Of a stretch of DNA of 27,211 nucleotides, positions 3,145-10,794 are shown in pieces; the first letter of the stretch is position 1, and each line of letters begins with the position of its first letter. A program made the translations under genes and the position numbers. Where the stretch lies: positions 1 through 27,211 of IMG/VR virus record IMGVR_UViG_3300011126_000091; one strand, 5' to 3'. Below the pieces are notes generated by a model. It ran no database searches and was not told the origin of the DNA. It saw nothing but the letters and a program-made list of their open reading frames with translations. This DNA comes from a virus.

Positions 3145-3557
3145 ACACCCCTGATGAAGTTTTCCAATTTATTCGTGATAAGTACGGATATTCAAAAGGC
3201 GTTCTTCTTGGAAAGAATCGCGGTCAGGACATTGTGACTGCGCGTCATATAGCCATGTTCCTAGTTGTGGAAAAGTGTGGGTTAAGTTTTCCACAGGCCG
3301 GGAAGTTATTTAGGAAGGATCACTCAACGGTTCTCTCTGCTTATCATAAAATCAGAGGCCTGATAATTGATAAGAAACTAGACCTAGATGAAAAAATCAC
3401 AGGGTATGAGCCCAAGATACGCCATGTGATAAGTCTTGATGATACACTAGATGATGGCCTTGACTTAGTTCGCAAGAAAATCAATGCCGCCTTTGGGCGC
3501 GACCCGATTGATACATTCATGGAACTGGCGGCTCTAGCAAAAAGGTTAGACCCATGA
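3141..3557 (+). CDS. stand-alone DnaA domain IV (DnaA-box-binding) protein
   Basis: The 138-residue protein carries the C-terminal DNA-binding domain of DnaA without domains I to III. Residues 22-75 match its signature: LLGKNRGQDIVTARHIAMFL, a helix-turn-helix with SFPQAGKLFRKDHSTVLSAY (DHSTV where DnaA has DHTTV), then HKIRGLI. Without an AAA+ domain it cannot bind ATP, form the initiation helix or load DnaB, so it is more likely to compete for DnaA boxes or to act as a regulator; that is inference. The C-terminal 60 residues are unrelated to DnaA. ATGA overlaps join it to the genes on both sides. Two inverted TTTTCCACA boxes lie inside its own coding sequence (3266-3295). Confidence 0.85.
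   Translation: MNTPDEVFQFIRDKYGYSKGVLLGKNRGQDIVTARHIAMFLVVEKCGLSFPQAGKLFRKDHSTVLSAYHKIRGLIIDKKLDLDEKITGYEPKIRHVISLDDTLDDGLDLVRKKINAAFGRDPIDTFMELAALAKRLDP
3266..3295. repeat. inverted pair of DnaA-box-like sites inside the DnaA-like gene
   Basis: TGTGGAAAA (3266-3274) and TTTTCCACA (3287-3295) are a perfect 9-bp inverted repeat with 12 bases between; centres are 21 bp apart, two helical turns. Each half fits the DnaA box TTWTNCACA. A further TTTTCCACA is on the minus strand at 1598-1606. Confidence 0.5.
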
Positions 3558-3787
3558 CCACTCAGCAGCTATGCACAGCCCAGAACGACCTATCCCAAGT
3601 TTTAAACGACAAGGACGCGAGCAAGAGCGATAGAGACTTTCTATTGTTTCAAGCCTCATCTGTAACCAGATCGCTTGGGCATGTGGACATTGCTGATCTC
3701 ATAATGGCTGGCAAGATTCAAGACGCGATTGACGATCTTGATGTTTTGATTAAGTCTGAACTGCGCGGTGGTATACTTCCCGGCTGA
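3554..3787 (+). CDS. hypothetical protein, last gene of the switch operon, 77 aa
   Basis: Acidic helical protein, no recognised family. Residues 1-30 are polar, residues 48-72 alternate hydrophobic and acidic positions (ADLIMAGKIQDAIDDLDVLI) like a helical hairpin. It is joined to the DnaA-like gene by an ATGA overlap, so the two are made together and may act together. Its 3' end abuts, on the opposite strand, a leftover ATGAGC junction of the neighbouring cassette array. Confidence 0.65.
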   Translation: MTTQQLCTAQNDLSQVLNDKDASKSDRDFLLFQASSVTRSLGHVDIADLIMAGKIQDAIDDLDVLIKSELRGGILPG

Positions 3788-3805
3788 CGCTCATTAGAAT
3801 ATCCT

Positions 3806-4123
3806 CTATAAAATGAAAGTTAGGACTACAGCCCCGACAATAAAAATCAGAATGAAAGTACCAAAAGCCTCATCTTCATTCATGTCGCGCAATGTCTTTT
3901 TGGTAAAGTTTTTACCTTCCCGACCACAAGACCAATCATATACTGATCGCCGCTCGTCTTTTATAGATGTGTAATCAGAAGGATTGCCGTTTTCTGGCTC
4001 ATCAATCGTGTGTCTTGTCAGGCGACAAGCGTCCCTATAATAGCGCGTAAATGCGCCACTGCCTGTTGTGAACTCAAAATGGTGTTTGCAATCATGGCAA
4101 CTTGGTATGCGTTCATCGCTCAT
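3806..4123 (-). CDS. cysteine-containing protein with C-terminal membrane helix
   Basis: The 105-residue product begins with a possible metal site: C9-x2-C12 followed by HH at 14-15, then C33 and C66, a spacing seen in small phage zinc-binding proteins. Residues 88-105 are a hydrophobic helix ending the protein, so it is probably tail-anchored with the cysteine domain in the cytoplasm. No known family. It is the last full gene of the ATGAGC array. Just after its TAG stop the same frame continues R-I-F then TAA overlapping another ATGAGC, so the stop may be a newer truncation of a protein that once ended in RIF like its array relatives. Confidence 0.65.
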   Translation of the reverse strand: MSDERIPSCHDCKHHFEFTTGSGAFTRYYRDACRLTRHTIDEPENGNPSDYTSIKDERRSVYDWSCGREGKNFTKKTLRDMNEDEAFGTFILIFIVGAVVLTFIL

Positions 4124-4270
4124 TTAAATATCTCCAAAAATAAGAGTGCATCCAGCGATCAAAAGCCAGATGAAAGCAAAAACAATACTAAACTGCTTGC
4201 TCATAAACCGTGATGCAAAAACAGAGCATATGGTTAGTGCGGCCCAAAACCTTATTAAGTCTGCGCTCAT
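4124..4270 (-). CDS. small membrane protein, 48 aa, two predicted TM helices
   Basis: A short open frame that fills the space between two array genes exactly. It starts ATGAGC overlapping the upstream TAA (TAATG) and its own TAA abuts the next ATG. The product starts MSADLIRFWAALTICSVFAS and has a second hydrophobic stretch, SIVFAFIWLLIAGCTLIF, separated by a short basic link (SRFMSKQ). This gives a helical hairpin in the inner membrane. No homologue is recognised. The identical junctions on both sides are the best evidence that it is a real gene. Confidence 0.65.
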   Translation of the reverse strand: MSADLIRFWAALTICSVFASRFMSKQFSIVFAFIWLLIAGCTLIFGDI

Positions 4271-4509
4271 TAGTGAGTTTCCACTTCATTGATCATAGCG
4301 CCCCAACAGTCTCGCGGATGCTTACCGTCTTTGAGCGCGTTAAATCCAGCCGTAGCCATCTTTTCTGTTGCGACTACCGGAACTACCATAAAGCCAGCGT
4401 CTTTGAGTGCGTTGAGCTGAGCATTAGCCGCGCTGTATTCTGTTGCCTGAGTGTGCTTGCTGGCATGATCGTACAGCGTGTTTTCTAAAATTTTGTGTAT
4501 AGTGCTCAT
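4270..4509 (-). CDS. hypothetical array protein, 79 aa
   Basis: Helical N-terminus (residues 5-37, rich in A and L) followed by a strand-like MVVPVVA and a C-terminal block with GKHPRDCWGAMI. The R-x2-W-x-A-M-I ending is a pattern I have seen in small proteins of several phages, but no function is known to me. It begins with the array junction GGAGATATTCTAATGAGC, the best copy of the repeat, and its stop overlaps the start of the small membrane protein by one base. Confidence 0.65.
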   Translation of the reverse strand: MSTIHKILENTLYDHASKHTQATEYSAANAQLNALKDAGFMVVPVVATEKMATAGFNALKDGKHPRDCWGAMINEVETH

Positions 4510-4745
4510 TAGAATATCTCCATATCTGGATTTCTTTTTTGGAAAGTTCGACCAGCATTAAAGGCCGCTTGAAGTGCAGACCCTACATCTCTATCGGTTA
4601 CATCAATGAGGGTGCTTTTTATTTTCTCTCGCTCTTCGCCCTCCGTTTTACTATTTGAGCAGAACACTTCAATGACAATGTTGGTTATGTTTCTAATCCA
4701 TGCAGAATTGCTATAGCCAACGGATATTTCATCATGATCGCTCAT
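4509..4745 (-). CDS. hypothetical array protein, 78 aa
   Basis: No recognised family. The protein has an acidic start (MSDHDEIS), a hydrophobic strand around IRNITNIVIEVFCS, a charged middle (KTEGEEREKIK) and a helix ending in QAAFNAGRTFQKR. The last residues MEIF are encoded by the ribosome-binding part of the next junction (GAGATATTCTAATG), so part of the protein end is set by the repeat rather than by function. Confidence 0.6.
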   Translation of the reverse strand: MSDHDEISVGYSNSAWIRNITNIVIEVFCSNSKTEGEEREKIKSTLIDVTDRDVGSALQAAFNAGRTFQKRNPDMEIF

Positions 4746-4933
4746 TGGATTTGTACTCCTAATTTTGAAACCTCAGCATATAGGCAATCCCGAAATGCAA
4801 GGCGCGGTGCGCTGAGATAATATTCAACTGTTGCCAATTCGATTGCTTTATCAATTTTATCTGAACTGACACCATCGGCCAGAGCAACAACCTTTAAGGC
4901 CGACACCACATCTTGATCTATCAAGCCGCTCAT
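4742..4933 (-). CDS. hypothetical array protein, 63 aa
   Basis: Mainly helical, with ALKVVALADG and IDKAIELATVEYYLSA segments and no membrane helix or motif that I recognise. It is joined to its neighbours by ATGA overlaps at both ends and starts with the common MS. Function unknown. Confidence 0.6.
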   Translation of the reverse strand: MSGLIDQDVVSALKVVALADGVSSDKIDKAIELATVEYYLSAPRLAFRDCLYAEVSKLGVQIQ

Positions 4934-5196
4934 TTAAAATCTCCCAATAGTTGTGCAAAAGCGATTGCGGCTTTTCTGCCTTGGATAGCGATTATGTTAT
5001 CTGCGCGCTTCATTTGATCACTGATGCGCGGCGTATGAAATTGCTTGCACTCAATATATGTATCAAATTCCTCAATATAGAAATCAAGGCCATTTGTTTT
5101 TCCGCTGGTTTCGTGATCATACGACACGTCTGCAACATCAAGAGCGCTGGCAATGATCAATTCAATGGGGTCGGTAAAAAGCCTGTTCTCGCTCAT
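4930..5196 (-). CDS. putative minimal PD-(D/E)xK nuclease-fold protein, 88 aa
   Basis: The core LDFYIEEFDTYIECKQFHTP (about residues 34-53) has the arrangement of a PD-(D/E)xK nuclease: an acidic residue on a first strand (D35), then E49-x-K51 (ECK) nine to fifteen residues later, then a helix with Q60 and a hydrophobic strand IIAIQGRKAAIAFAQLL. This is the fold of restriction and Holliday-junction nucleases in minimal form. It lies in the same leftward block as the cytosine methyltransferase, but nothing shows the two work as a restriction pair. No Cys or His cluster is present. Nuclease activity is inferred from the motif only. Confidence 0.5.
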   Translation of the reverse strand: MSENRLFTDPIELIIASALDVADVSYDHETSGKTNGLDFYIEEFDTYIECKQFHTPRISDQMKRADNIIAIQGRKAAIAFAQLLGDFK

Positions 5197-5399
5197 TAGA
5201 AAACCCCGCTTTCATTCATAACCGCTACTAGCTTCTCGCCAAACTCACGGCAAGGATCGGTGCCATCCTCCCTGAAACAATCCATATCTTTGTCGGTCAA
5301 GCAGTGTGGGTTAATTTTAAAAAGGCAGTGGCCCTTTTCGTCCTTAACCACACCCCAATCATCATATTTATCTGGCCTATAAGAAAACATATCGCTCAT
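5196..5399 (-). CDS. hypothetical array protein, 67 aa
   Basis: The ATG at 5399 is chosen since it carries the array ATGAGC and an ATGA overlap with the gene before it; a longer frame to 5435 is only a shadow. The protein has four cysteines (in HCLFK, PHCLT, DCFRE, PCREF), a possible metal site, and ends ESGVF through the next junction. No family recognised. Confidence 0.6.
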   Translation of the reverse strand: MSDMFSYRPDKYDDWGVVKDEKGHCLFKINPHCLTDKDMDCFREDGTDPCREFGEKLVAVMNESGVF

Positions 5400-5593
5400 T
5401 TGTTTATCCTTAACTCTCGCGCACGATCTAACCACTTGTGCGCTTCGTTTCTAAATTTGCCCGACAGCTTATTACCCTCTTGCCGCTCAATCATGTGATT
5501 GCTGTCACACCAATCCAAATCAAGGTGATCGCTGCAAGACATGTATGCCTCGGCTCTGGCGCAGCACTGTTCGTATGTAAGCTTGGCGCTCAT
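5396..5593 (-). CDS. hypothetical array protein, 65 aa
   Basis: Starts at 5593 (ATGAGC, ATGA overlap). Basic, helical, with a cysteine pair in QCCARAEAYMSC and a tryptophan-containing C-terminal helix HKWLDRARELR. No family recognised. GAGGGA precedes the start by about nine bases. Confidence 0.6.
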   Translation of the reverse strand: MSAKLTYEQCCARAEAYMSCSDHLDLDWCDSNHMIERQEGNKLSGKFRNEAHKWLDRARELRINK

Positions 5594-5901
5594 TTGTGTA
5601 ATCCCTCTTTGCTGTTTTTGGTGGCTGCAATGAAGTGCTGATAGATGGAGTGAAAAGCGGCTTGATGCGCTAAAATCCACTCATACAATTCATGGTCAGT
5701 ATTCTTGTCCAACTCCATAGAAATGCGACTGCGTGTGTAGCTTTCTTGTTTCCGTTTCAGCCACGCCTCGAAAGCCTCTAAGCTGTCCATACCAACTTGA
5801 ATATCAAAACCACCAAGAAGGGATTTTCCGCTCAATATGTCGTTCAGCGGTATCATCCCCGCCTCTTTCATGCGCTTTGATAATTCATCCGTATCGCTCA
5901 T
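5590..5901 (-). CDS. hypothetical array protein, 103 aa
   Basis: One of the longer array proteins. It has a polar start, a SLEAFEAWLKRKQESY helix near the middle and a C-terminal helix HELYEWILAHQAAFHSIYQHF that may form a coiled coil. No motif that suggests catalysis. TAATG overlap with the gene before it, ATGA overlap with the gene after. Confidence 0.6.
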   Translation of the reverse strand: MSDTDELSKRMKEAGMIPLNDILSGKSLLGGFDIQVGMDSLEAFEAWLKRKQESYTRSRISMELDKNTDHELYEWILAHQAAFHSIYQHFIAATKNSKEGLHK

Positions 5902-6143
5902 TAGAATTTTTCCTTTTCGTCTTCTTCAATCGCATCAATTACTTTGCGAAGTGCCTCTCGGGTTTTTCTCGACCTACACCCAGACATGCAAAACTCGATA
6001 ACAGCCGAGTGATGGCGAAACCCATCAGAGTCCTCTGTTATGGTTTCAACGGCAATATCACTACTGCTACTTTCCGTGATGCGTAGCCATGATCTAGGCG
6101 AGCAATCTCCATTCACGGAAACCTGTCTGATTTCATCGCTCAT
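5901..6143 (-). CDS. hypothetical array protein, first ATGAGC gene, 80 aa
   Basis: Serine-rich, acidic, with two cysteines in IEFCMSGCRSRK and a C-terminal charged helix ending EKF from the next junction. It follows the methyltransferase with a four-base ATGA overlap (6140-6143). No family recognised. Confidence 0.6.
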   Translation of the reverse strand: MSDEIRQVSVNGDCSPRSWLRITESSSSDIAVETITEDSDGFRHHSAVIEFCMSGCRSRKTREALRKVIDAIEEDEKEKF

Positions 6144-6910
6144 ATGTGTGAACTCCTTATTTCTGAAATTGCGTTGCCTATCATCTCTGGTAGCCGGGGC
6201 GGTACTGCGTTCCCTAGCGTTCTAAGTCTGTGTGTCCTATTGGAAATCCCTTGAGCCACTCCACAAACTCTGGATGAGGGTACTGACCATCGGTCTTGTT
6301 CTCTCTGATGACTTCCCGAAAATTCCCCCTGCATTGCGACGAACCCCTGTAACGCTTTGAACTCGCGCCCTTTGCATCCGAGGCTGTTGGCCGCGGCAAT
6401 AATCCACAAGTGCCGTTCCATCGTTGGTAGTCCTGCTGCGTCAGACGCAATATCAAACGTCCGGACGGTGTATGCCGCGGCTTCCAAATCGGATAAGACA
6501 ATATCGAGGCCCATATTGGCGTGGTGAGAAACATTTTCTCCAATAAACCAATCGGCCCGGCACTCTTTGATAATTCTATCAACTTCTTTCCAGAGCCAGC
6601 GGTCATCTTGTTGGCCCAATCTTTTGCCAGCAATACTCTCTCCTTGGCAGGGATAGCCCGCTGAAACAACGTCAATTGGTCCGGTGTAGATAATGTCTCC
6701 GTCATAACTTAATTCTTTCGTTAGGTAATTATAGCTGAGTTTCTTTACGTCCTGTGCTGCGGGTACTAAGGGCCAGTGTTTTTTCAACACCTTGCGGCAA
6801 AACTCGTCTACCTCACAAAACGCTATTGTTTCCATCCCGGCGCGGTCAAAACCTAAAGCAAAGCCGCCAATACCGCTAAACAGATCAAGGACTTTGAGTT
6901 TTTCGGTCAT
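6140..6910 (-). CDS. dcm: DNA cytosine-5 methyltransferase
   Basis: A 256-residue C5 methyltransferase that transfers methyl from S-adenosylmethionine to cytosine in DNA. Motif I is DLFSGIGGFALG (residues 9-20), motif IV GYPCQGES with catalytic Cys88, motif VI ENV at 125-127, a diverged motif VIII (MERHLW, 164-169) and motif X with RTLGNAVPP near 230. The part between motifs VIII and X, which recognises the target, is short (about 60 residues), as in many phage enzymes. It overlaps the recombinase stop by ATGA. It may protect phage DNA from host restriction. A second, 163-codon open frame runs inside it (6214-6705). Confidence 0.9.
   Translation of the reverse strand: MTEKLKVLDLFSGIGGFALGFDRAGMETIAFCEVDEFCRKVLKKHWPLVPAAQDVKKLSYNYLTKELSYDGDIIYTGPIDVVSAGYPCQGESIAGKRLGQQDDRWLWKEVDRIIKECRADWFIGENVSHHANMGLDIVLSDLEAAAYTVRTFDIASDAAGLPTMERHLWIIAAANSLGCKGREFKALQGFVAMQGEFSGSHQREQDRWSVPSSRVCGVAQGISNRTHRLRTLGNAVPPRLPEMIGNAISEIRSSHI
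6214..6705 (-). CDS. overprinted open frame inside dcm, family-like protein
   Basis: This frame lies entirely within dcm, shifted by one base, and is open for 163 codons. Its translation is protein-like and, as far as I remember, resembles small phage proteins often found with cytosine methyltransferases: GLLPRPTASDAKGAS, a YRGSS..CRGNFRE block, then YPHPEFVEWLKGFPIGHTDL at the end. The same bases that encode the dcm motif X region (GISNRTHRLRTLGNA) encode GFPIGHTDLER here. The ATG at 6705 has only a weak AAG-rich ribosome site. Either it is a true overlapping gene or the database family is itself a shadow of dcm genes; I cannot decide from one genome. Confidence 0.35.
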   Translation of the reverse strand: MTETLSTPDQLTLFQRAIPAKERVLLAKDWANKMTAGSGKKLIELSKSAGPIGLLEKMFLTTPIWASILSYPIWKPRHTPSGRLILRLTQQDYQRWNGTCGLLPRPTASDAKGASSKRYRGSSQCRGNFREVIRENKTDGQYPHPEFVEWLKGFPIGHTDLER

Positions 6911-7536
6911 TTACTGCCTCTATTCTTCTCAAACGGAAACCGTGTTTCAAACGGCACATTCGCCCTAATGTCGTCACGGTAATTATAAATTCTAGCATAC
7001 GCCATGCCACTAATCGCTTCCAACTGTTTAAGCGTCAGTGGCTTATCGTCGTTCAAGGATGCTTTATACGCAGCACAAGCAGTGTCCCATTGTTCTTTAG
7101 TGAACGTCAGTCCCCTTGTGGTGTATGTTTCGCGCTCCTTCGCAGCCTGTATACCAGCAGCCGTTCTTTCTGCTGTTGTATCGCGCTCCATTTGCGCCAG
7201 AGCAGCCATTATATGAAAGATAAGCGTTCCCATAGGGGTAGTGGTGTCAAAGCCTTCTGTAAGGCTCTTAAAACCCACTCCACGGTCTTTTAAATCATTA
7301 ATGGTGTGGATAAGGTGCAAGACCGATCTACCAAGCCTATCTAATTTCCAAACAACAAGCGTGTCACCTTTTCGGCAGCGCTTTAATGCTAAATCATATT
7401 GAGGGCGTTTCGCCGCTAAAGCAGAAACCTTTTCTTGATGAATATACTTATCTTCAATGCCAGCTTTGCGTAATGCGTTAAGCTGTAAATCAAGGTTCTG
7501 ATCTTCCCTAGATGTTCTTGCGTAACCAATTTCCAC
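6907..7536 (-). CDS. serine recombinase (resolvase/invertase type)
   Basis: The 209-residue protein has the resolvase catalytic domain: YARTSREDQNLDLQLNAL with nucleophile Ser9, KLDRLGRSVLHL with arginines 67 and 70, and FHIMAALAQMERDTTAERT (helix D/E region). The C-terminal part (about 150-209) carries a helix-turn-helix-like LTLKQLEAISGMAYARIYNYR. The size is that of small resolvases and invertases, not large phage integrases. It could resolve genome multimers or invert a segment; no paired inverted target site was found in the window. It is the first gene of the leftward block and shares an ATGA overlap with dcm. Confidence 0.85.
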   Translation of the reverse strand: MEIGYARTSREDQNLDLQLNALRKAGIEDKYIHQEKVSALAAKRPQYDLALKRCRKGDTLVVWKLDRLGRSVLHLIHTINDLKDRGVGFKSLTEGFDTTTPMGTLIFHIMAALAQMERDTTAERTAAGIQAAKERETYTTRGLTFTKEQWDTACAAYKASLNDDKPLTLKQLEAISGMAYARIYNYRDDIRANVPFETRFPFEKNRGSK

Positions 7537-7668: not shown

Positions 7669-8550
7669 TTGCCTAGACCGACAACACCATTTGCGCTTCC
7701 TTACGATCTGATTGTTTCTGTATCAGGCGGGGAGACTTCAATGTATATGGCTTATTGGCTGAAAGAGAACGCGCCGCGCCACTATAATTTGAAGTTTATC
7801 TTTGCCAATACTGGAGAGGAGCGAGAAGAAACTCTGCGCTTCGTTAATCAGTGTGACATGCAATGGAAGCTTGGTGTGGTGTGGCTAGAGGCTAAGGTGT
7901 TGGGTGCACGTAAGGGAACGTCCTACACAGTGACGGACTATGCCGGAGCATCTAGGAACGGCGAGCCGTTTGAGGCTGTTATTCAAAAGTATGGAATACC
8001 AAACGCCGCATATCCTCATTGTACGCGAGAATTAAAGCTGGCCCCAATCACTAGCTATATGTCTGACAATGGACTGAAAGATGCTTGGACAGCCATAGGT
8101 ATCAGGGTTGATGAGATTGACCGCATGAGGGGTGACGCAGCGCAAGCGCGTCTTATTTACCCATTCATCCAATGGACTACTGTTAGAAAGCAGGAAGTTA
8201 AAGAGTTCTGGGAAAGCCAGCCGTTTGAGTTGGGACTGAAAGAGCATGAGGGTAATTGTAAATGGTGTTGGAAAAAGTCGGATCGCAAGCTTTACACGCT
8301 TGCCCTAGATAACCCAGATATATTTGATTTTCCGAAGCGTATGGAAAACGAGTATGGATTAGCTGGTGCTAATGTGGATGGAACGCACCGCAGGTTCTTT
8401 CGTCACCATAGATCAGCGGCAGATATTCTTGCTGAGGCTGGTAAAGCTAACTTTGAGAAGTTTTCAGAACGTAATTTTACCCATGAACCAGAGCTTGATT
8501 TAGGGTTTGGTTGTGGGGACACATGCGAAGCCTTTGTTGAGGCTTCTTAA
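7669..8550 (+). CDS. PAPS-reductase-family (PP-loop) protein, TTG start
   Basis: The 293-residue protein belongs to the PP-loop ATP pyrophosphatase/phosphoadenosine phosphosulfate reductase superfamily. SGGETS (19-24) is the PP-loop, followed by FIFANTGEEREETLRFV, a typical second block. Cysteines C118 (CTREL), C197/C200 (CKWC) and C282/C286 (CGDTC) could bind an iron-sulfur cluster or take part in thiol chemistry, as in DndC-like members. The TTG at 7669 is chosen because AAAGGA lies about nine bases before it and the nearest ATG (7659) soon hits a stop. Substrate unknown: sulfate assimilation, tRNA thiolation or DNA sulfur modification are all possible. It starts the rightward AAACGCCC operon. 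Confidence 0.75.
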   Translation: MPRPTTPFALPYDLIVSVSGGETSMYMAYWLKENAPRHYNLKFIFANTGEEREETLRFVNQCDMQWKLGVVWLEAKVLGARKGTSYTVTDYAGASRNGEPFEAVIQKYGIPNAAYPHCTRELKLAPITSYMSDNGLKDAWTAIGIRVDEIDRMRGDAAQARLIYPFIQWTTVRKQEVKEFWESQPFELGLKEHEGNCKWCWKKSDRKLYTLALDNPDIFDFPKRMENEYGLAGANVDGTHRRFFRHHRSAADILAEAGKANFEKFSERNFTHEPELDLGFGCGDTCEAFVEAS

Positions 8551-8593
8551 TTATTACACTAACGCCCGGTTTGGGCATAACAGGAGACACAAG

Positions 8594-8866
8594 ATGGACG
8601 CAGTATGGGTAATGTTTGACGAAGAAGGAAAGTGGGTTCGCGCCTACTCGTCTAAGAACAGGGCAGAAGAAGATTTGGACTTAATGTCTGATCGCGAAGG
8701 CCATACGATAGAAGAATTGCCAATGTACCACGGTGCTGTTGCTGGCTTTCGGGGTCTCGGTTTAATACCAGAAAGTGTGCGCGAGCTTCGTATGGGATTA
8801 GACCCTGCTATTGGTAGCGCCCAAACTGGTTCGCTGGAGCGCGGTATTCGCGATCTATCGGAATAA
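8594..8866 (+). CDS. hypothetical protein, 90 aa
   Basis: The ATG at 8594 follows AACAGGAG and an AAACGCCC element, which fixes the start; a longer frame begins inside the previous gene. The product starts with a compact strand-rich part (MDAVWVMFDEEGKWVRAYSS) and has a Gly/Arg-rich C-terminus. It resembles no family I know. It is followed at once by another element copy and the tRNA genes. Confidence 0.65.
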   Translation: MDAVWVMFDEEGKWVRAYSSKNRAEEDLDLMSDREGHTIEELPMYHGAVAGFRGLGLIPESVRELRMGLDPAIGSAQTGSLERGIRDLSE

Positions 8867-8892
8867 CACTTAAACGCCCATGTGGGCAATAA

Positions 8893-8969
8893 CAGGGTAT
8901 AGCTCAGTTTGGTAGAGTGTCGGGTTTGGAACCCGAAGGCCGAAGGTTCAAATCCTTCTACCCTGACCA
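8893..8969 (+). tRNA. tRNA-Pro (anticodon TGG)
   Basis: All arms fold: acceptor CAGGGTA/TACCCTG (7 bp), D-arm, anticodon stem TCGGG/CCCGA with loop TTTGGAA (anticodon 8927-8929), T-arm GAAGG/CCTTC with loop TTCAAAT, and an encoded CCA. The C1-G72 pair and A73 are bacterial tRNA-Pro identity features. Position 37 is A, whereas tRNA-Pro nearly always has G37. Confidence 0.95.
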
Positions 8970-8973
8970 ATAT

Positions 8974-9049
8974 GGTGTTAGTAGCTTAATGGTAAAGCGC
9001 TGGATTGTGAGTCCAGAGACTGCGGGTTCAAGTCCCGTCTATCACCCCA
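8974..9049 (+). tRNA. tRNA-His (anticodon GTG)
   Basis: The acceptor GTGTTAG/CTATCAC pairs except for U4-U69. An extra G at 8974 (G-1) faces C73, the hallmark of tRNA-His, and CCA is encoded. Anticodon stem CTGGA/TCCAG with loop TTGTGAG (anticodon 9007-9009); the T-loop TTCAAGT is normal. It begins four bases after tRNA-Pro. Confidence 0.95.
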
Positions 9050-9062
9050 AAAAGGAACGACG

Positions 9063-9257
9063 ATGCGAGTTTTTGTGGATTTGGAAAGATACGGAAGCCC
9101 GGAGACTAGGCAGATTGATATAGACATCGAGCCTTTGGTGAAAAAAGAGCTTGCTGCGGAAATAAATCATGTTGCCGGGTACTCTTCCGATGCGGTTGAT
9201 GAGGCAGAAATTGATTATTACGCCACGACAAAAGAGATGGTCGCGGATAACTTTTAA
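9063..9257 (+). CDS. hypothetical protein, 64 aa
   Basis: Acidic protein starting MRVFVDLERYGSPETRQIDI, with a helix rich in E and A in the second half. AAGGAACG precedes the ATG by a few bases. It begins 13 bases after tRNA-His, and its stop overlaps the next AAACGCCC element. No family recognised. Confidence 0.65.
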   Translation: MRVFVDLERYGSPETRQIDIDIEPLVKKELAAEINHVAGYSSDAVDEAEIDYYATTKEMVADNF

Positions 9258-9295
9258 ACGCCCGCTATGGGCATAACAACGGAGTATTTTTAATT

Positions 9296-9429
9296 GGTGT
9301 GTCGTGGTGGTACTGACCACAGGTGAGGCGGGATGGTTCCAGATTGTGTATTCGAACGCACACGCCTTATTTCAGTTAAGCGGCACACCTACTAAGAATA
9401 CTTCACAAACGCCCGGAGATATGGCATGA
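9296..9429 (+). other. structured segment, possible small RNA or 41-aa gene
   Basis: Between an AAACGCCC element and the next gene lies a stretch with strong folding signals: GGTGTGTCG (9296-9304) pairs with CGGCACACC (9381-9389), GTGGT pairs with ACCAC near 9304-9320, and GGCG/CGCC lies inside. GGTGTGT can also pair with ACACGCC (9360-9366) like a tRNA acceptor of a 71-base molecule, but the T-arm is wrong and no CCA is encoded. The same DNA has a frame open from GTG 9304 that ends TGA at 9427-9429, overlapping the next ATG as ATGA. The ribosome site for it is poor. Either reading is uncertain. Confidence 0.3.
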
Positions 9430-9581
9430 CTAAAAAAGAACTCGGATATAAATACGCACAAGAAGAAAACGGTCATTTGGCTGGTCAATGGCCTGAGCCG
9501 GATGACGGTGGCTTGGCCGACGATCCAGATTTCAAGACTGGATATAAGCAGTTTCATGATGAACTGAGCCAAATGCCCTAA
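9426..9581 (+). CDS. small acidic protein, 51 aa
   Basis: An open frame from ATG 9426 with CGGAG seven bases before it. The product is acidic and polar, with PEPDDGGLADDPDF in the middle; no family is recognised. The ribosome site and start are embedded in a degenerate copy of the AAACGCCC element. The same frame stays open after the TAA at 9579 right through to the next gene (9726-9914), so a nonsense change splitting one longer gene is possible. Confidence 0.5.
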   Translation: MTKKELGYKYAQEENGHLAGQWPEPDDGGLADDPDFKTGYKQFHDELSQMP

Positions 9582-9725
9582 TCAACACTTAAACGCCCGA
9601 ATTACTCCGAGCCGCCTCTCAACGATGCGTACACGCTAGAACCTGAATTGACAGGGTATCGTCCAGAGGGAACGCTGGAAATGGAGTGTTATTATTTTAA
9701 CCACAAACGCCCGAAAGGAACTGAT

Positions 9726-10050: not shown

Positions 10051-10794
10051 ATGGGAAATTCAATGAACGGCTTTTTTACATTACACAGAGATTTGATGCA
10101 GCATTGGTGCGCGTCTGATCCTAATTTTTTGGCTGTTTGGGTTTGGCTTATCAATGATGCTAACTGGCAGGACAAGAAATCTCTTATCAATAGTTCCGTG
10201 GTTGAGGTTAAGCGTGGACAGTTAATTTATGGCCGGGATGCGTTCTCTAAAAAGTCCGGTGTTTCTGTTTCAAAATTAAGACGCATCATTAAAATTCTCG
10301 ACGATGAGGGCATGATTAGCCAGCAAAAAACCAATAAATATTCAATCATTTCAATAACTAAGTATGACGATTACCAGTCAGTTGACCAACAAAACACCAA
10401 CAAAACACCAACAAAACACCAACAAAACACCACACCTAAACAACTTAAACAAAATAAACCACTAAACAAAGACATTGGACGCTTTGAAGAATTTTGGTCT
10501 GTGTATCCAAAAAGGGAGGGCGGCAATCCAAAATCACCAGCAATGGATAAGTTTATTAAGGCGGTCAATGATGGCGCTAATCCTGATAGCATCATAGCAA
10601 GTGCAAAAGCATACGCAGCTAGTGTGGAGAATATCGACAACAAGAGAATGATCTGCCAAGCAATTACTTGGTTAAATCAAAAGCGGTGGAAAGATGAACA
10701 CGAAGCACCAGAAAAGGCGCACCTTGAAAGCCCAGAGGATTGGGGGGTGGATGCTAACGCGCCGATAACGATGACAATGGAGAAATACAAGTGA
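10051..10794 (+). CDS. replication initiator/replisome organiser with winged-helix domain
   Basis: The 247-residue protein has the layout of phage replication initiators: an N-terminal winged-helix part (about 45-107: SSVVEVKRGQLIYGRDAFSK, LRRIIKILDDEGMIS), a polar Q/N/T/K linker (111-140) and a C-terminal helical domain starting FEEFWSVYPKREGGNP and including ICQAITWLNQKRW, which is common in replication proteins that contact the helicase loader. The next gene is a DnaC-like loader. ATG 10051 has AGGT six bases upstream; ATG 10063 is the alternative. The linker is encoded by four 11-bp iterons, so the origin probably lies inside the gene, as in lambda O. Confidence 0.8.
   Translation: MGNSMNGFFTLHRDLMQHWCASDPNFLAVWVWLINDANWQDKKSLINSSVVEVKRGQLIYGRDAFSKKSGVSVSKLRRIIKILDDEGMISQQKTNKYSIISITKYDDYQSVDQQNTNKTPTKHQQNTTPKQLKQNKPLNKDIGRFEEFWSVYPKREGGNPKSPAMDKFIKAVNDGANPDSIIASAKAYAASVENIDNKRMICQAITWLNQKRWKDEHEAPEKAHLESPEDWGVDANAPITMTMEKYK
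10386..10429 (+). repeat. four perfect 11-bp iterons, probable replication origin
   Basis: CCAACAAAACA is repeated exactly four times head to tail at 10386-10396, 10397-10407, 10408-10418 and 10419-10429. Eleven is not a multiple of three, so the protein does not repeat in step; the pattern is therefore kept as DNA. An A-rich stretch follows to about 10480, like an unwinding region. Confidence 0.65.

Follow-up and report, generated by a model that had tools for sequence, protein, structure and literature searches.

The stretch of DNA analysed here (the window) is the 27,211-base IMG/VR virus record IMGVR_UViG_3300011126_000091, a tailed phage with terminase, portal and SU10-type capsid genes. 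On its minus strand lie ten consecutive small open reading frames (ORFs) that run leftward from 6143 to 3806, each of them opening with the same six letters, ATGAGC. This sequence, which covers the start codon and the second codon and is called the box below, and the array of small genes that carries it are the subject of this work. The array genes were called by ORF inspection; they are listed here in leftward order, each starting at its higher coordinate, together with the features that border them.

6140..6910 (-), C5-cytosine DNA methyltransferase (PF00145, 5e-28), directly upstream of the array; starts ATGACC
5901..6143 (-), array gene 1, 80 amino acids (aa), ATGAGC start; 4-nt overlap with the methyltransferase stop
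5590..5901 (-), array gene 2, 103 aa, ATGAGC start; 1-nt overlap (TAATG)
5396..5593 (-), array gene 3, 65 aa, ATGAGC start; 4-nt overlap (ATGA)
5196..5399 (-), array gene 4, 67 aa, ATGAGC start; ATGA overlap
4930..5196 (-), array gene 5, 88 aa, ATGAGC start; nuclease-like, with a weak phrog endonuclease match
4742..4933 (-), array gene 6, 63 aa, ATGAGC start
4509..4745 (-), array gene 7, 78 aa, ATGAGC start
4270..4509 (-), array gene 8, 79 aa, ATGAGC start; weak phrog_5913 match
4124..4270 (-), array gene 9, 48 aa, hydrophobic, ATGAGC start
3806..4123 (-), array gene 10, 105 aa, ATGAGC start
3789..3794 (-), orphan terminal ATGAGC box, with only a 14-codon ORF (3794-3750) behind it
3554..3787 (+), convergent gene, 77 aa, with its stop 1 nt from the orphan box

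A first-pass annotation of the window had described ten successive leftward genes with ATGAGC starts, each start overlapping or abutting the preceding stop, and this description holds throughout the array: neighbouring genes overlap by four bases (ATGA), overlap by one base (TAATG) or abut. The ribosome site of the coupled genes sits inside the upstream gene, as in a coupled chain of the phage lambda nin type. The annotation had also stated that Met-Ser is mostly followed by D, E, A or G, which fits nine of the ten proteins (D in five, A in two, E and G in one each), the remaining one having T at this position. All three junction strings that it quoted do exist, but one of them, AGGATATTCTAATGAGCG at 3794, heads no real gene; it is an eleventh copy of the box, equipped with a good ribosome site.

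None of the array proteins gave a confident match in Pfam, PHROG or PADLOC, apart from the weak nuclease hint for the product of 4930-5196 (-). This 88-aa protein carries the conserved residues LDFYI...IECKQFH...IQGR, has homologues in Rhizobium phages and is probably a small PD-(D/E)XK-type nuclease. As the array proteins are mutually non-homologous, tandem duplication of one gene was ruled out as the origin of the array. A shared C-terminal peptide was ruled out as well, because near-identical DNA upstream of the boxes is read in different frames (GAG ATA TTC TAA at 4509 versus GGA GAT ATT TAA at 4123), and at 3794 it does not code for protein. Neither a terminator nor a promoter exceeding the shuffle level was detected at the junctions of the region, and a search of the window against Rfam returned only two tRNAs and no known RNA element at the junctions.

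The box persists in a related phage with entirely different array genes

The closest record that includes the early region is IMGVR_UViG_3300022670_000360 (the relative, with pieces labelled L006, L041 and L042), whose TerL, portal and capsid proteins are 61-73% identical to those of the window (portal 61%, major capsid 68%). Its own array comprises 12 genes (L041 13337-16212), all opening with ATGAGC, and none of the encoded proteins is recognisably related to any array protein of the window. In both phages the box genes are non-homologous and all lie on one strand within their array, and neither array has junction-linked inverted repeats. The relative, too, ends its array region with an orphan ATGAGC (L041 16410), which opens a frame of 8 codons, lies one base from the stop of an unrelated convergent gene and is separated from the last box gene by one gene without a box. 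The first-pass view of the array as a modular accessory cassette thus stands insofar as the gene content turns over fully between relatives while the box stays; the homology-module mechanism attached to that view does not, as described below. Since the relative keeps the six letters on twelve different genes, they appear to be under selection as a signal in their own right.

Relatives of array genes that reside outside such arrays mostly start otherwise. A relative of the L041 gene at 15651 in Alteromonas phage R7M starts with ATGACA, while among the relatives of the window gene at 5196, those in Rhizobium phage TM30, L003 and L004 have other starts and only that in L002 has ATGAGC. The box accordingly goes mostly with the operon and not with a gene family.

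Relatives were sought by scans with the portal, capsid, terminase, recombinase, DnaA-like and array proteins and with two junction patterns, in IMG/VR, in phage and plasmid records and in 754 bacterial genomes from two proteobacterial classes. These scans yielded just two relatives, one carrying a full array and the other a variant one, and in the collections searched no pair of related phages differing by an exchange at the boxes turned up. Distant relatives by portal, capsid or terminase, as well as nine proteobacterial genomes encoding a related capsid protein, are without such an array. The box is therefore known from three genomes, all of them metagenomic.

ATGAGC marks array starts and is constrained at the nucleic acid level

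The raw number of ATGAGC copies in the window is unremarkable (22 versus 15.2 +/- 3.9 expected, a count reached by 7 of 100 shuffles). It is the position that is exceptional: all ten genes of the window array and all twelve of the relative start with ATGAGC, in comparison to 5 of 99 other ORFs (Fisher P = 1e-19), the latter being all ORFs of at least 60 aa outside the arrays of both phages, as found by a simple ORF caller. This agrees with the first-pass statement that other genes mostly lack this start, and it excludes the possibility, named there as a refutation, that the start is shared genome-wide. Outside these two phages, no more than five genes shared a start hexamer in any of 257 operon-like chains from about 200 loci, the chains being automatically built runs of adjacent ORFs. 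Chance was rejected on the grounds of the start position and of these comparisons with other ORFs and chains. The sole non-array gene of the window that starts with ATGAGC encodes a single-strand DNA-binding protein (1113-1562, -).

The second-codon serine is encoded by AGC in 22 of 22 array genes, whereas AGC accounts for only 30% (window) and 19% (relative) of the serine codons inside the same genes; therefore, the constraint acts on the nucleic acid and not on the protein. Overlapping genes elsewhere in the same phage start with ATGACC or ATGAAC, and translational coupling was thus rejected as the cause of the AGC codon. Both results bear out the earlier remark that coupling by itself does not require a fixed second codon.

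How far the conserved sequence extends is a different matter. Across 23 junctions of the two phages, the invariant core comprises ATGAGC (23/23) followed by G at +7 (20/23). A purine-rich ribosome site always precedes the box, with an AT-rich spacer, and the register of the box is fixed relative to the start codon. However, the 16 upstream nucleotides do not resemble one another beyond what shuffling within each column gives: the best junction pair of the window agrees at 12 of 16 positions (P = 0.53), and for the relative P is 0.95. The first-pass annotation had proposed about 15 conserved bases acting as a short homology module; what remains of it is a core of 6-7 bases plus ribosome-site composition. 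Extended homology around the boxes was accordingly rejected, and the core itself lacks the length that ordinary homologous recombination calls for.

A resolvase-like protein heads the arrays, also in a third phage

A scan for the junction pattern led to a third phage, IMGVR_UViG_3300023219_000110 (L176). Its structural genes differ from those of the other two phages, but its layout is alike, with an array of the second type (see the last section) on one strand, a resolvase-like gene and coupled small genes, two of which start with ATGAGC. Elsewhere in L176, at 10160-10390 (-), a long run of near-identical 15-base units (GAGGTTTGCCCCTTC) lies within a coding frame and likely encodes a pentapeptide-repeat protein.

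In all three phages a serine recombinase, or a homologue of one, heads the array:

6907..7536 (-), window: serine recombinase of the invertase/resolvase type (PF00239, 1e-42), heading the operon
L041 12846-13340 and L176 10610-11113: head proteins with a resolvase fold, a C-terminal helix-turn-helix and changed catalytic residues

Only the window copy looks intact at the positions of the catalytic serine and arginine, and the methyltransferase gene separates it from the array. An AlphaFold model of the L041 copy, built from an input alignment of three sequences that included the window recombinase, has a mean pLDDT (the per-residue confidence) of 74, and its best matches among both solved and viral structures are serine recombinases. 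Because catalytic positions are lost in two of three phages, a conserved active serine recombinase was rejected as the engine of the array, and with the methyltransferase gene intervening in the window, action of an active enzyme on the boxes is unsupported. The head protein may instead have a DNA-binding role, and the L041 and L176 copies could be repurposed regulators.

Comparison with known systems

The closest parallel is offered by the start-associated sequences (SAS) and extended start-associated sequences (ESAS) of cluster K mycobacteriophages and cluster EF Microbacterium phages, which are start-linked motifs found before non-homologous genes and whose function is unknown (PMC3203893, PMC7302621). 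As with SAS, a short conserved sequence marks here the starts of numerous small genes that are non-homologous and share one orientation, and it is kept in related phages on different gene families. Unlike here, SAS is a 13-bp motif located upstream of the start and including the ribosome site, whereas in our arrays the upstream bases vary and the core consists of the start and the second codon (ATGAGCG); moreover, the genes described here overlap in one array. ESAS also has 17-bp imperfect inverted repeats upstream, and none were seen in either array. As the defining upstream 13-bp motif was tested for and not found, we do not classify the box as an SAS but only suggest that it works like one, and the best reading is a start-anchored expression signal functionally similar to SAS that would span the start and the second codon.

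Chained small accessory genes with ATGA or TAATG overlaps, and with ribosome sites inside the upstream gene, are also known from the nin region of phage lambda. The arrays resemble this chain in having small accessory genes with stop/start overlaps; unlike them, the nin genes have, to our knowledge, no fixed second codon described, while the AGC found here is not demanded by coupling. Another repeat at a small-gene junction is the 17-bp sequence that flanks gene 14 of Corndog, a cluster O mycobacteriophage, for which one gain or loss was seen between close relatives (PMC4351075). It provides a precedent for a role of such sequences as cassette boundaries, but the repeat there has 17 bp in comparison to the 6-7 base core, and no close pair is available here. 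In archaeal viruses, a conserved regulatory sequence of early genes was used to find anti-defence genes (PMC11065993). There, too, a shared signal marks many unrelated small genes (early ones in that case), although it lies upstream, includes a promoter and is not inside the coding start of an operon. Finally, an integron-like cassette array would have N+1 sites, and both arrays do end with an orphan box, yet the relative has a gene without a box before its orphan, and, unlike in an integron-like array, the catalytic residues of the recombinase are not conserved across the three phages.

Possible function of the box

We propose that an accessory operon carries ATGAGC(G) on its mRNA as a nucleic-acid signal anchored at each start, by means of which all genes of the operon would be translated or controlled together; we give this proposal about an even chance of being correct. 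The shared letters probably mark genes for joint expression. With a box at the initiation site of every small gene, the operon could be translated or controlled jointly, and a gene could join or leave it only if it carried the box, so that selection would retain the box during gene turnover. The box would then act in translation, either as an initiation enhancer or as an operator for an RNA-binding factor of the phage or the host, and the operon, which looks early, would be expressed early. The sequence AUGAG is complementary to CUCAU of the initiator-tRNA anticodon loop. An A at +4 is reported to favour initiation, via pairing with U33 or via an out-of-frame stop (PMC9841429). As such tRNA pairing or an A at +4 leaves C at +6 and G at +7 unexplained, a trans-acting factor may still be involved.

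Several observations weigh against this proposal. The orphan boxes at the ends of both arrays are not followed by a real gene; the ribosome sites are already strong ones, and it is not obvious why an additional initiation enhancer would be needed; and we found no regulator of the box. Moreover, three L176 genes (variant-box genes, L176 11471-12371, with the N-termini MTDTNQ-TS, MIRKNQ-TS and MTDNTK-TS) retain an in-frame ACGAGC as codons 7-8; a new ATG lies exactly 18 nt ahead of it, and ACGAGC cannot be the start codon there. The L176 boxes are either relics, or else A(T/C)GAGC has a role that is independent of being a start codon. The orphan boxes and the A(T/C)GAGC copies off the start codon are suggestive of a boundary role, although not decisively.

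In such a role, the box would mark the place where small genes enter, leave or replace one another as whole units, through either a site-specific enzyme or recombination at short homologies, with N genes and N+1 boxes; the ribosome site of each gene would travel together with the 3' end of the gene upstream of it. We consider this possible but rather unlikely. On one hand, it would fit the complete replacement of array genes between relatives with unchanged boxes, the orphan end box in both phages one base from the stop of an unrelated convergent gene, and the presence of a serine recombinase or its homologue at the array head in all three phages. It would also fit an in-frame ATGAGC with its own ribosome site inside one array ORF of the relative (L041 14965), as if two cassettes had fused, and the sequence CAAATCAAA(T/C)GAGC of L176, which forms an end-of-gene/start junction at one site and internal codons at another. 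On the other hand, no breakpoint was observed, as the collections searched held no closely related pair, the upstream bases are only as alike as composition predicts, and in two of the three phages the catalytic residues of the recombinase-like protein are changed. Known serine recombinase sites are longer and built of inverted repeats, and the asymmetric core of 6-7 bp is unlike them. A combined version, to which we assign a small probability, is a gene-capture array where the box would serve as boundary and start codon at once, ORFs being exchanged exactly at their start, with the orphan as the open end and the resolvase-like protein at the head. If this were true, every newcomer would be expressed and in frame at once.

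It is also conceivable, though quite improbable, that a single 5' leader, consisting of a ribosome site and ATGAGC, was copied repeatedly onto unrelated or new ORFs, and that the box is now functionless. The box is short, and the L176 leaders (ATGACTGACA..., ...AAATCAAACGAGC) are indeed alike on non-homologous genes. However, with core proteins that are 61-73% identical and flanks that have fully diverged, the box is intact in 23 of 23 cases, and neutral copies are unlikely because they would have decayed to other serine codons. Selection on an N-terminal Met-Ser-(Asp/Glu), for instance for Met removal or stability, hardly deserves credence: highly expressed proteins favour serine, among other residues, at the second position (PMC1397820) and D or E often follows it here, but Ser2 is AGC in 22 of 22 array genes while 70-81% of the other serines use other codons, and of the 12 among 99 non-array ORFs with Ser2 only 5 have ATGAGC.

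Small accessory genes of phages come in variable blocks, and many of these genes may counter host defences; the box bears on the question of how the expression of such blocks is kept while genes come and go. A six-base tag over the start and the second codon that outlasts full gene replacement is an unusually clean case, it allows such operons to be sought in metagenomes by sequence, and its two readings, as an expression signal and as an exchange site, can be separated by simple experiments.

A second junction element and neighbouring features

A different element recurs on the other side of the recombinase gene of the window:

8552..9720 (+), second junction element TAAACGCCCG with a ribosome site, in repeated copies that precede small genes and a tRNA pair

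Exact copies of AACGCCCG number 5 in comparison to 0.5 expected, and several copies of the element can form a GCCC...GGGC hairpin. One copy in the window precedes the tRNA-Pro/tRNA-His pair, and the element is therefore not purely translational. The element, TAAACGCCCG(GAG), is also present at L041 12760-10899 (-) before unrelated small genes, with variants in L176. That the same phages have two arrays, each with a junction type of its own, suggests that the principle is not a one-off.

Directly after the tRNA pair, between two elements of this second type, lies a structured-looking stretch (window 9278-9400, +), for which neither ARAGORN nor Rfam gave a tRNA call. A gene of the phosphoadenosine phosphosulfate reductase family (phrog_424; window 7669-8550, +) is oriented divergently from the recombinase gene.

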